Positions 59,290 through 64,000 of a DNA stretch of 64,000 nt are shown here, in pieces. The position numbers were made by a program, and so were the translations under genes. Location: contig NZ_JALXFV010000002.1 of the NCBI RefSeq assembly GCF_023699475.1, forward strand, positions 667,393 to 731,392, given 5' to 3'. Below the pieces are notes generated by a model. That model did no database searches, was not told where the DNA came from, and worked only from the letters and a program-made list of their open reading frames with translations. Positions within the stretch are counted from its first letter, which is position 1. Each line of letters opens with the position of its first letter. Origin of the DNA: Halomarina rubra. Its GTDB lineage: Archaea; Halobacteriota; Halobacteria; Halobacteriales; Haloarculaceae.

Positions 59290-60126
59290 ATGGACGACGT
59301 CCACTCAGACTGGGGCGACTGGCTCCTCCGAGCGGTCGAGGGGAGCGCCCCCGAGGGACTGGCGGTCTGGTATCTCGGCTGTAACGGCTTCGTCGTGAAG
59401 GCGAGCGACGGGACGACGCTGTTCGTCGACCCGTACCTCGGGACGGGCGACCCGCCGCGGACGGTCCGGATGGTTCCGGTGCCGTTCGACTCGGCGGACG
59501 TCCGGGAGGCCGACGCCGTCCTCGCCACGCACGAACACTCCGACCACGTCGACGGGCCGAGTCAGGCCCCCATCCTCGCGAACACCGACGCGCCGTACTT
59601 CGCGCCGGACGCCTCGCTCGCCGAAGTCGAGGCACAGGGATGGCGCGAGGCGTACGACCTCGACGACGACCGGTTCGTCGAGGTCTCGGAGGGCGACAGC
59701 GTCGAGGTCGGGGAGGTGACCGTCCACGTCGAACCGGCCCACGACCCGGACGCCGAACACCCCGTCTCGTACGTCGTCGAACACGCGGGTCGGACGTTCT
59801 TCCACGGCGGGGACGCCCGCCCGAGCGAGCAGTTCGCGGATATCGGCGAGCGCTACGACATCGACCTCGGTGCGCTCGCGTTCGGGAGCGCGGGCCGAAT
59901 CCCGGACAAGGAGACCGGCGACCCCAAGGACACCCAGTGGTACGCCGACGAGAACGACGTCGTCGAGGCGGCCCGGCAACTGCGACTCGACCGGTTCCTC
60001 CCGACCCACTGGGACATGTGGAAGGGTCTCACCGCCGACCCGACGGCGCTCGGTCCCCACGTGAGGGGCTTCGAGTACCCGCGACGACTCGAACTGCTCG
60101 AAATCGGTGACAGCACCGTCGTCTGA
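59290..60126 (+). CDS. MBL-fold hydrolase, UlaG-like
   Basis: A 278-residue metallo-beta-lactamase-fold enzyme of the UlaG (ascorbate-6-phosphate lactonase) type. The first metal site is ATHEHSDHVDG (about 75-85), with His in HVEPAHDPD, Asp in HGGDARPSE and His in LPTHWDMWKG near 240. Family members cut lactones or phosphoesters. Haloarchaea lack the ascorbate pathway, so the real substrate is unknown. The start is ATG at 59290. Lies upstream of the coiled-coil gene on the same strand. Confidence 0.87.
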   Translation: MDDVHSDWGDWLLRAVEGSAPEGLAVWYLGCNGFVVKASDGTTLFVDPYLGTGDPPRTVRMVPVPFDSADVREADAVLATHEHSDHVDGPSQAPILANTDAPYFAPDASLAEVEAQGWREAYDLDDDRFVEVSEGDSVEVGEVTVHVEPAHDPDAEHPVSYVVEHAGRTFFHGGDARPSEQFADIGERYDIDLGALAFGSAGRIPDKETGDPKDTQWYADENDVVEAARQLRLDRFLPTHWDMWKGLTADPTALGPHVRGFEYPRRLELLEIGDSTVV

Positions 60127-60175
60127 CGGTTCTCTCGTCTCGGACACGTCGGGGGCTATACAGTTCACGAACACA

Positions 60176-60183
60176 TTTATTAT
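60176..60183 (+). promoter_or_regulatory. TATA box of the coiled-coil protein gene
   Basis: TTTATTAT centred 26 bases before the ATG at 60206, in an AT-rich stretch. It predicts a strong leaderless promoter and confirms the start codon. Confidence 0.6.
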
Positions 60184-60205
60184 CGGAAAGCAGTACAGTC
60201 GAACA

Positions 60206-61966
60206 ATGAGTGAGCTTGCTGCGGGTGTCGTCGCGACCGAGGGCGTCACCGTCGAGAAGACCTTCGAACCGGAGGAGTACCCCGTTCCGGCCATCGCGTT
60301 CGTCGTCGCGTCCGAGCGCGAGGAACGGGTGACGGTGCGAATCGTGGACGAGTTACCCGAGGACGTCGCCGCCGACGACGTGGGGTTCCACCCCGAGTTC
60401 GGTGAGGAGTTCTGGTCCGTCGAGGAGGGCGACCTCGTGTTCGAACGGGACCTCCCGGCGGGCGAGACCGTGACGACCGTCTACGCGCTTAGAGACCAGG
60501 ACCTCGACGCCGCCGAGGAGTTCCTGAGCGACCCGGCGGTCGAGGTCGACGACAGCGCGGCCGATGTGCTCGGGTCGAACAGCGGCGACGTGGTTCGAGA
60601 CGTCATCGCCGGCGACGCCGACACCGTCCCGGGGCTCGAAGAGGAGGCCGAAGCCGTCGACATCGCCGACGCGGACGACGAGGAGGATATCGAGCCGATC
60701 GAACTCAGCGACCCTAACGAGGGCCAGGAGGACGACGCTTCGTCGCCGGGCGGCGAACCGGCCGCTACGTCGACCGCACCACCCGCAGAACCCGAACCGG
60801 CCGACGGTGCGCCGGCAGCGAGCGGCGTCGCCGCCGCGCTTGCACGCGAACTCCACGAGGGGACCGTCGAGCCTCGCGTCGAGAACGCGCTCCGTGCCGC
60901 GCTCGGTGCGGACGGCCCCTCCGGGAGCGACCAGGCACAGCTGGCGACCATCCGCGAGGACGTGACCAAACTCCGCGCGTACGTCAACGCGCTGGAGGCG
61001 TTCCTCGACGAGAACGGCGACGCCCAGACCCTCCTCCGGGACCTGCGTGGCGAACTCGGCTCCATCGAGTCGCGCGTCGAGACCGTCGCCGGGCGGACCG
61101 AGTCGCTCGATGGCCGCCTCGACGAGACGACCGGTCGAGTCGAAGCGACGGAGACCGACGTCGAGTCGCTGGACGACCGCCTCGGCTCGACCGACGAGAC
61201 GGTCGCCGACGTCGAGCACCAGGTCGAGGGCGTCGAAGAGCAGGTCGACACCGTCGGCGAGGAGGTCACGGAAGTCGACGCGCGTGTCGGGGAGGTGGCC
61301 GAACAGGTGGCGGCGTTCGACGCCGACGTCGACGAGTTGGCAGACCACGCCGACGAGACCGACGAGCGATTCGACGCCGTCACCGACCGTGTCGACGCCG
61401 TCGACGACCACGCGGAGACGGTCGAACGGGAACTCGATGCAGTCCGCGAGGAGGTCGACGACCTCTACGAGCGGACCGACGAGGCGGCCGCCGACCTCGC
61501 GGCACTCGACGACTCGACGACCGACCTCGAAGACGGCCTGGTCGACGTCGAGACCAGCGTCGAGGGGGTGCGCTCGGACCTCGTGACGCTCCGCGACCAC
61601 CTCGACACGTTCCGCGGGGAGGCCGCGAGCACCGAGGACGTCGACGCGGTCGCCGACCGACTGGAGACGACCATCGACGGCCTCGGCGAGGCCGTCGAGC
61701 GTCTCGAAGCGACCGAAGAGCGGGTCGAGACCGTCGACACGACCCTGGAGGAGGCGGGCGACGTCGCCGACCGTCTGGAGGACCTCGAAGCCTCGCTCGA
61801 CGACCTCGACGACCTGAACGGACGGGTTGACGACCTGGAGGCGACGCTGGAACGGCTCGACGCGCTCGACGAGCGTATGGACGACGCCGAAGACGAACTC
61901 GAGGACTTCCACGCGTTCCAAGAGCGGATGGCCGGCGTGTTCGGCGGCAACGCGCCCGAAGAGTGA
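60206..61966 (+). CDS. Large acidic coiled-coil protein
   Basis: A 586-residue protein. An N-terminal globular part (about 1-115, with a VVASEREERVTVRIVDELPED strand pattern) is followed by an acidic Pro/Ala-rich linker (about 120-205), then about 370 residues of nearly continuous heptads. The heptads have Leu, Val, Ala and Ile at a/d positions and Glu, Asp and Arg elsewhere, for example RVETVAGRTESLDGRLDE. No membrane helix or signal is present. The pattern resembles SMC arms, tropomyosin or t-SNARE-like rods, so it could organise DNA, membrane or filaments. No homologous family can be named. Confidence 0.8.
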   Translation: MSELAAGVVATEGVTVEKTFEPEEYPVPAIAFVVASEREERVTVRIVDELPEDVAADDVGFHPEFGEEFWSVEEGDLVFERDLPAGETVTTVYALRDQDLDAAEEFLSDPAVEVDDSAADVLGSNSGDVVRDVIAGDADTVPGLEEEAEAVDIADADDEEDIEPIELSDPNEGQEDDASSPGGEPAATSTAPPAEPEPADGAPAASGVAAALARELHEGTVEPRVENALRAALGADGPSGSDQAQLATIREDVTKLRAYVNALEAFLDENGDAQTLLRDLRGELGSIESRVETVAGRTESLDGRLDETTGRVEATETDVESLDDRLGSTDETVADVEHQVEGVEEQVDTVGEEVTEVDARVGEVAEQVAAFDADVDELADHADETDERFDAVTDRVDAVDDHAETVERELDAVREEVDDLYERTDEAAADLAALDDSTTDLEDGLVDVETSVEGVRSDLVTLRDHLDTFRGEAASTEDVDAVADRLETTIDGLGEAVERLEATEERVETVDTTLEEAGDVADRLEDLEASLDDLDDLNGRVDDLEATLERLDALDERMDDAEDELEDFHAFQERMAGVFGGNAPEE

Positions 61967-62936: not shown

Positions 62937-63161
62937 CGCCTCTCCGACGAGTCGCTCACGTCGGTCTGTTCCGGTCACCGTCACCACTCATTCGGCTCGA
63001 ATCGGTCCGCTCGACGGCTCTTGCTCTCCCTCCCGGTCACACCGGTCCGTCCCGCACGCCGAACCGTCGGTCCCGTCGTACTCTCCCGACTGGTTATTGT
63101 TCTATACGAAATGGTGGTTTTTTTAGACAGTCTAGTCTAGAATTTATTAAGATAGGTTCAA

Positions 63162-63169
63162 TTATATAT
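63162..63169 (+). promoter_or_regulatory. TATA box of the 44-residue micro-protein
   Basis: TTATATAT lies 24-28 bases before the ATG at 63190, within an unusually AT-rich stretch from about 63095 to 63170. A leaderless, probably strong promoter. TCTAGTCTAG with a partial TCTAGA palindrome lies at 63131-63141. Confidence 0.6.
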
Positions 63170-63189
63170 GCGGAGTGCTCTGAGACGTG

Positions 63190-63324
63190 ATGTCTCGGAC
63201 CACAATCGCGGACCGCGTGTCGAAGCACCCGAAACTGACCGGCGTCCTGTTCGCGGCGTTGCTCGCCCTCTCACAGGTGGGGGCGGCGGCCGCCGCCACC
63301 GGGTCGACCCTCGGCGGTCCCTGA
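63190..63324 (+). CDS. 44-residue hydrophobic micro-protein, DUF7503 type
   Basis: A 44-residue protein starting MSRTTIADRVSKHPKLTGVL. A short basic start is followed by one hydrophobic helix (about 17-36, ALLALSQVGAAAAA) and a polar STLGGP end. I recall this layout, including the HPKLTG-LF-LL-SQ motif and the final GST-x-GGP, as the haloarchaeal DUF7503 family. It may be a single-pass membrane or exported peptide. It is convergent with the CHAT gene, with 44 bases between the stops. ATG at 63190 is confirmed by TATATAT 24 bases before it. Confidence 0.75.
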   Translation: MSRTTIADRVSKHPKLTGVLFAALLALSQVGAAAAATGSTLGGP

Positions 63325-63368
63325 CCGACGCGTCCGCCCGCCCGACACCCCCCTTCTCGACCGTTCGT

Positions 63369-64000
63369 TCACCCCAGCCTCGATTCGTCCTCCCGACCGA
63401 TCTCCTCGGCAGACAGCAGGTCGCTCCAGCGGAGCGCACCGTCGAGGAACACCGGAAACCGGTCGAGGTCGAGGAACGCTCGCAACTCCTCGTCGTCGAC
63501 CGTGAAATCCCCGACGTGGCCCGCGTTGAGGTATCGACGCCCGTCGTCGGGGACGTTCGGCGAGTACACCGACCCCGGACCCATCCGGCCCGTCGGGTGG
63601 CCGTACAGACCGAGTCGATAGCGGTCGTCGCCGAGCGCCGTCAGTTCCGCGCTGACCGGGGTCGCGGCGCGACACGTCGCGAGCGTGAGGTTCTGGTCGC
63701 CGACGATGCCGTAGTGTTTCGCGAACAGGTCGGCGTCGCCGAGGACGTCGAGCGCACCGCCGAGGGAGAAGCCGGCGTTGAGCAGTCGCGCCAACGTCCG
63801 CCCGATGCGCGTCGCCGAGTCGTTGCCGATCATGACGAACGTGACGACGCCCGCGATGGCCCCGGCGTCGACGAGGTGCTGGCCCTGTCGGTACGACTGA
63901 CACGCGTTGAGGACGAACGCGCGGGTGCCGACGTGTTCCAGTGATGCGGCGTCGAGGTAGCCGTCGGCGCACTGCATCCCGCGTTCGTCGACGTGCCCGA
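63369..64000 (-). CDS. CHAT-domain (caspase-like) protein, N-terminally truncated by window edge
   Basis: The C-terminal part of a caspase-fold protein. The likely catalytic His is in GHVDERG (codon at 63993-63995) and the catalytic Cys is in LNACQSYRQG (codon at 63900-63902), the standard CHAT His-Cys dyad. After this, about 160 residues of unrecognised beta-rich sequence, ending AEEIGREDESRLG, close the protein. The frame continues off the right edge, so N-terminal repeats or sensor domains are lost. CHAT proteases are associated in bacteria with programmed cell death and anti-phage systems (established). Convergent with the DUF7503-type gene. Confidence 0.85.
   Translation of the reverse strand, partial: GHVDERGMQCADGYLDAASLEHVGTRAFVLNACQSYRQGQHLVDAGAIAGVVTFVMIGNDSATRIGRTLARLLNAGFSLGGALDVLGDADLFAKHYGIVGDQNLTLATCRAATPVSAELTALGDDRYRLGLYGHPTGRMGPGSVYSPNVPDDGRRYLNAGHVGDFTVDDEELRAFLDLDRFPVFLDGALRWSDLLSAEEIGREDESRLG

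Follow-up and report, generated by a model that had tools for sequence, protein, structure and literature searches.

Several systems are known in which a caspase-like protease is encoded beside a dedicated protein partner, among them Craspase with Csx30 and the bacterial gasdermins with their proteases. Craspase cuts Csx30, and caspase-like proteases release gasdermin pores. A different arrangement is found in the Rgg-SHP and arbitrium systems, where a small gene adjoins that of the receptor and a short C-terminal peptide is the specific part. Here we describe a locus of Halomarina rubra that shares features with both. It lies in a stretch of 64,000 nucleotides (contig NZ_JALXFV010000002.1, positions 667,393 to 731,392; 'the window', in whose numbering positions are given) and consists of a gene for a predicted caspase-like cysteine protease and a convergent gene for a 44-residue microprotein. 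As with Craspase and the gasdermins, a caspase-like protease stands beside a dedicated partner. However, Csx30 and gasdermins are much larger than the haloarchaeal microprotein, which, judging from its conservation, would work via a tail of about ten residues. As in Rgg-SHP and arbitrium, a small gene adjoins that of a putative receptor and the short C-terminal peptide appears to be the specific part, but the partner is a protease instead of a transcription factor, and forms of the microprotein that lack a helix show no export signal. Our favoured explanation, to which we assign a probability of roughly 0.4, is that the two genes form a haloarchaeal module in which the microprotein is the dedicated peptide partner of the protease, its tail binding and gating the enzyme. 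The features of the locus are as follows.

63096..63169, + strand: promoter of the microprotein gene, rich in A+T; a similar A+T profile precedes 157 related peptide genes
63162-63169, + strand: TATA-like TTATATAT, starting 28 nt 5′ of the microprotein ATG
63190..63324 including the stop codon, + strand: DUF7503 (PF24335) microprotein of 44 residues, ATG at 63190
63226..63291, + strand: His-Pro-Lys motif and hydrophobic helix, microprotein residues 13-34, dispensable in relatives
63292..63321, + strand: C-terminal ten-residue tail with Gly-Gly-Pro end, retained in all peptide forms
63325..63368, no strand: gap of 44 nt between the stop codons of the microprotein and the protease
63369..64000 including the stop codon at 63369-63371, − strand: 3′ portion of the gene for the CHAT-like protease, assigned to clan CD from a predicted fold; the gene extends to what would be window position 65543
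63900-63902, − strand: codon of the catalytic Cys548, a residue invariant in aligned relatives
63993-63995, − strand: codon of the catalytic His517, likewise invariant

The microprotein, MSRTTIADRVSKHPKLTGVLFAALLALSQVGAAAAATGSTLGGP, is a clear member of Pfam family DUF7503, scoring 56.5 bits against a curated cut-off of 27; Pfam lists no function for this family. A first-pass annotation, made from the letters of the window alone, had described a CHAT protein with an intact His-Cys dyad that converges on a 44-residue peptide with its own AT-rich promoter. The convergent arrangement with 44 nt between the stop codons was confirmed. As to the promoter, upstream of 157 related peptide genes the A+T content mostly amounts to 70-90% from −60 to about −28. 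From the position of the TATA-like stretch, a leaderless mRNA is plausible. The protease reading frame is open from the window edge to its stop codon, with only about its last 210 codons inside the window, and extension beyond position 64000 in the same genome yields a full protein of 724 residues (L009:4762-6936, − strand). The dyad was also borne out, since His517 and Cys548 are invariant in 61/61 and 82/82 aligned proteins of two alignments. With the Pfam CHAT model (PF12770) the window protease reaches only 12.7 bits, below the curated cut-off of 24, and matches at E up to 0.1 were obtained for 15 of 61 relatives, the best at 4e-4; the predicted fold of a relative nevertheless supports the assignment.

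This fold was taken from an AlphaFold2 model of a Halomarina halobia relative, 51% identical to the window protein, computed with 82 sequences (mean predicted local distance difference test, pLDDT, of 90.3). In the model, a beta-rich N-terminal part is followed by a clan CD domain and a small C-terminal beta domain. Residues 330-610 match gingipain R with a Z-score of 20.0 (root-mean-square deviation 2.9 over 238 residues) and SAVED-CHAT with a Z-score of 17.2 (2.4 over 168), followed by separase (17.0), Craspase TPR-CHAT (14.2) and caspase-7 (11.6). The model thus places the catalytic domain in the clan CD caspase-like fold, which it would share, together with the His-Cys dyad, with these enzymes. 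The haloarchaeal protease differs from them by its sub-threshold CHAT score, its dedicated convergent microprotein and another N-terminal part. For the latter the first-pass annotation had suggested a TPR, WD40 or GAF-like sensor beyond the window edge, and in the extended sequence none was recognised, either by Pfam searches of the window protein and its relatives or by structure matching; nor was a SAVED domain. When residues 1-335 were modelled separately (pLDDT 92.3), a beta-rich and a mixed part were predicted, and Foldseek returned no match at E 0.001 or better. The best structural match, to the YidC periplasmic domain (Z 7.7), is too weak to claim a YidC-like N-terminal part. A sequence search with the protease profile hit no solved structure, no viral contig with a protease match was found, and four proteins of the locus matched none of the PADLOC anti-phage families. 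Protease matches were present in 26 public plasmid records, where names such as 'caspase family protein', 'CHAT domain-containing protein' and 'hypothetical protein' are used.

The pairing of protease and microprotein is real and far exceeds chance. Among 96 genomes of the family, 97 of 105 DUF7503 matches are convergent with a protease gene and within 250 bp of it, 95 of them facing listed protease genes and two facing protease genes outside the list. The remaining eight are located within about 5.5 kb of a protease gene. Two assemblies, G019 and G073, both carry a 3,915,224-base contig with identical match places and appear to be duplicated or mixed; when G073 is excluded, the count is 95 of 102. 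We looked for the peptide far from CHAT genes, the case that the first-pass annotation had named as speaking against a conserved unit, and did not find it. Two seemingly orphan matches actually face protease genes, and the other exceptions look displaced. A tandem DUF7503 pair with identical ends (L300:2348-2663, − strand), which lies some 2 kb away from the nearby protease gene, looks like a local duplication. In the window genome all five protease genes listed (five of six matches) have a convergent Gly-Pro peptide at the 3′ end, two of these peptides being too diverged for the Pfam cut-off. One of the other copies, a paralogue of 756 residues and about 50% identity, lies past the window end (L009:7971-10241, + strand), divergent from the window protease; it has its own convergent DUF7503 gene, so that two complete modules stand back to back.

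Across 391 genomes of the class, the protease was found in 365 and DUF7503 in 335, and a comparison of the two tables by eye placed the protease in all 335. The 30 genomes with the protease only comprise six with Haloplanus array types (see below), two with diverged peptides and 22 with only distant proteases. The peptide was also present at most of 80 named GTDB loci, including Haloferax, Halobacterium salinarum, Haloarcula and Halorussus. A few truncated or duplicate rows were removed before counting, and 100 of 150 listed protease places were retrieved. An open reading frame ending in Gly-Pro was found in the joint between the genes at 133 of 166 main-set loci, compared with two, three and five of 166 in control windows. 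The spacing of the stop codons was 10 nt or less in 96 of 157 modules, some of which had been chosen by the Gly-Pro criterion; 30 of the 96 overlap, and gaps reach 231 nt. The partnership is clustered in the protease tree and is not absolute: 11 gains or losses of the peptide are needed on a tree of 84 rows.

Comparison of the peptides showed which part of the microprotein is constant. The usual form starts with a short N-terminus and an [HN]P[KR] motif; a hydrophobic helix follows, and then a tail of variable sequence, with a C-terminal Gly-Pro in 146 of 150 distinct peptides (a handful of which were chosen for that ending). Comparisons within genera show purifying selection on the helix as well as on the tail, with faster amino-acid change in the tail. 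Expressed as the ratio of the proportions of non-synonymous and synonymous differences (pN/pS), the helix region gives 0.35 in one of four genus groups and about 0.1 in each of the others. In Haloplanus, the peptide is encoded in 12 of 12 genomes, each time with a 4-nt overlap with the stop of the protease gene. Three genomes have the ordinary helix form; the other nine lack the helix and have, in the same slot, a tandem array in which a 13-residue unit, for example YTADGNGGGISGP, occurs 2-14 times. The helix-form tails of this genus (SNGGGISGP, GNSGAISGP) correspond to the array unit. The unit cores show a pN of 0 and a pS of 0.19-0.56 in eight of the nine arrays, the ninth consisting of two identical units. 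Units were located with a pattern that fits only such units, and the full frames reveal no others. In the 188-residue array protein of Haloplanus ruber (L253:8049-8615, − strand), 13 nearly identical units of 13 residues follow one another.

A third form accompanies a second protease type found throughout the Natrialbaceae. Of 30 loci, chosen as the best matches from 101 genomes, 28 have a convergent open reading frame that ends in Gly-Pro; in three control windows, none of the 30 has one. Its product is non-hydrophobic and ends in AKRVSTYGGP, ASGVSTYSGP, DGGSSPYTGP or close variants. In three groups of these frames, taken from stop to stop and right-aligned without gaps, the last ten codons have a pN of 0.06-0.08 and a pS of 0.52-0.59 (pN/pS about 0.1-0.16), whereas the preceding 20 codons have 0.49-0.65 and 0.55-0.66 (pN/pS about 0.9-1.1). 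The hydrophobic helix is thus dispensable. What stays constant is the tail, the roughly ten C-terminal residues with their final Gly-Pro; the array and helix-less forms, although they occupy the same slot, fall outside the DUF7503 family model. Because synonymous sites are free to change, selection on the tail acts at the level of the protein. A signal in DNA or RNA at the joint was rejected for the same reason, and neither an Rfam match at the joint nor, in a simple scan of 63000-64000, a terminator-like site was found. The first-pass annotation had noted that a protease beside a small membrane peptide is also met in toxin or cell-death modules. A membrane-peptide toxin as the essence of the pair is not supported, given the loss of the helix in nine of 12 Haloplanus genomes and its absence from the Natrialbaceae type, both of which keep the Gly-Pro tail, and the hydrophobic-toxin reading is weakened by these forms.

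Helix, leader and array can replace one another, whereas the tail cannot be exchanged in this way. In the simplest view, the tail is therefore a ligand or substrate of the protease. In the mechanism that we favour, the larger gene encodes a CHAT-like cysteine protease of clan CD, as its modelled fold suggests, and the tiny convergent gene its peptide partner, of which the last ten or so residues would be the working part. The rest of the microprotein would only present the tail, by a membrane helix in most species, by a tandem array in Haloplanus and by a barely conserved leader in the Natrialbaceae. The tail would bind the protease and gate its activity, and clustering, whether membrane-bound or on an array, might bring protease molecules together, in analogy to caspase scaffolds. 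Binding may be direct, gating may act in either direction, and a role in stress or cell death is conceivable. Consistent with this proposal, distances between tails follow those of the protease C-terminal domain best (partial r 0.18; protein windows at 641-704 with z 5.5-5.8).

Several observations weigh against gating by the tail. The correlation with the C-terminal domain is small, some other protein windows reach a z of about 4, and it is confounded because the two compared parts are encoded by gene ends that touch in the DNA. At 32 of 187 full-length protease genes no convergent peptide was found by the criteria used, and the protease can therefore act alone or with something else. Eighteen of these 32 form one cluster of the tree, with weak support, and two of the genes in question (L161 and L164) have a Gly-Pro peptide in a divergent, upstream position instead. 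The orientation of the helix form is a further difficulty. The helix is preceded by a basic residue, and no charge is carried by 113 of 142 tails, so that by the positive-inside rule the tail would be located outside the cell, where a protease with no recognised export signal would not be expected to meet it.

We prefer gating by clustering over cleavage of the microprotein by the protease, and the latter over a secreted signal. If the microprotein is a substrate or effector, which we consider possible with odds well below those of gating, a triggered protease would cut it and free an active part, and the tail would be either the recognition site or the released part. Such a relation would resemble Craspase and the gasdermins in that the protease is encoded beside a conserved small partner. 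It also fits with the Asp-Gly that often directly precedes the tail in helix-less forms (Asp at −10 in 8 of 8 examples checked), as it does in the DGGSSPYTGP group and in TDGHTIGGP (L183), since a caspase-like enzyme could cut after the Asp, and with the first Haloplanus array unit, which can still hold Ala at the Asp position. On the other hand, this position is Ala and not Asp in 17 of 28 Natrialbaceae peptides, the arrays lack the conserved Lys/Arg that precedes the helix, and acidic residues are common in proteins of halophiles anyway.

That the peptide is a signal seems unlikely. The helix would then serve for secretion, signal peptidase would cut after Ala-x-Ala, and the protease of the producing cell or of another cell would sense an exported peptide of 8-9 residues. 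In 101 of 142 helix-type peptides, [AVST]xA indeed precedes a tail of 8 or 9 residues, tails differ between paralogues within one genome, and the arrays resemble precursors with many copies of one peptide; the small-peptide pheromones of Gram-positive bacteria may offer an analogy. However, the helix region is more conserved, at the ratios given above, than a signal peptide need be, and neither the arrays nor the Natrialbaceae type have a clear hydrophobic segment, with 19-residue hydropathy maxima below 0 in eight helix-less examples and of at most 1.3 in the Natrialbaceae. Processing at Ala-x-Ala or Asp-Gly was retained only as part of these alternatives, because peptides without a helix can have Ala at −10 too.

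Slightly less probable still is a pair of the toxin-antitoxin or antisense kind, in which overlapping transcripts or an inhibitory microprotein restrain the protease, and loss of the small gene frees it. The close or overlapping stop codons at 96 of 157 modules imply that convergent transcripts probably overlap. The wide gaps at other modules, the divergent peptides at L161 and L164, and the freedom of the synonymous sites in the tail, which puts selection on the protein, argue against this arrangement. That the genes merely travel together without a functional link, as protease genes of the same family without a peptide might suggest, is highly improbable given a pairing that spans families and genera, three dissimilar N-terminal forms joined to a tail of the same kind in the same place, and control windows that are empty or nearly so.

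Returning to gating by the tail, a more specific version can be proposed, which we regard as doubtful. In this version the archaeal caspase-like enzyme is itself, throughout the class, the receptor for its paired Gly-Pro peptide of about ten residues. Paralogous pairs would be insulated by the tail sequence, and precursors would have switched from helix to arrays; along with a new route of release, Ala directly before the tail would have given way to Asp.

The distribution of the family contrasts with a 2012 survey, in which caspase homologues are reported for only 5 of 114 archaeal genomes (PMC3501461), as a gene of this predicted caspase-fold family is present in 365 of 391 haloarchaeal genomes. 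Haloferax volcanii displays a dominant caspase-like activity, and according to the 2012 paper on it the proteins behind it had not been identified; its authors also discuss proteasomes (PMC3615174). Protease and peptide were found at ten Haloferax loci, and DUF7503 is present in H. volcanii as well. The module thus provides candidate genes for this strong activity, the protease gene being a candidate source only. The paired tail is a concrete short molecule for finding what switches such a protease on or off. Our data suggest a protease-plus-peptide switch that has previously gone unnoticed, and a search of the open literature found no paper in which DUF7503 or DUF7504, either Pfam number, or a haloarchaeal CHAT or caspase is named.

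Among the neighbouring genes, a DUF7504 gene (L009:6921-7676, − strand) is located directly upstream of the window protease on the same strand. With a home-made profile, DUF7504 was identified as the same-strand upstream gene at 58 of 156 peptide-bearing protease loci, and on this count it was rejected as an obligatory third partner. A second DUF7504 gene is placed as follows.

L010:2865-3563, + strand: DUF7504 gene directly upstream of a protease gene on the same strand

Another upstream neighbour (L011:7753-8493, − strand) has no Pfam match, and similar proteins recur upstream of many protease genes. Within the window, positions 60107-61966 (+ strand) encode a protein of 619 residues with a long, coiled-coil-like C-terminal half, which matches many coiled-coil models.
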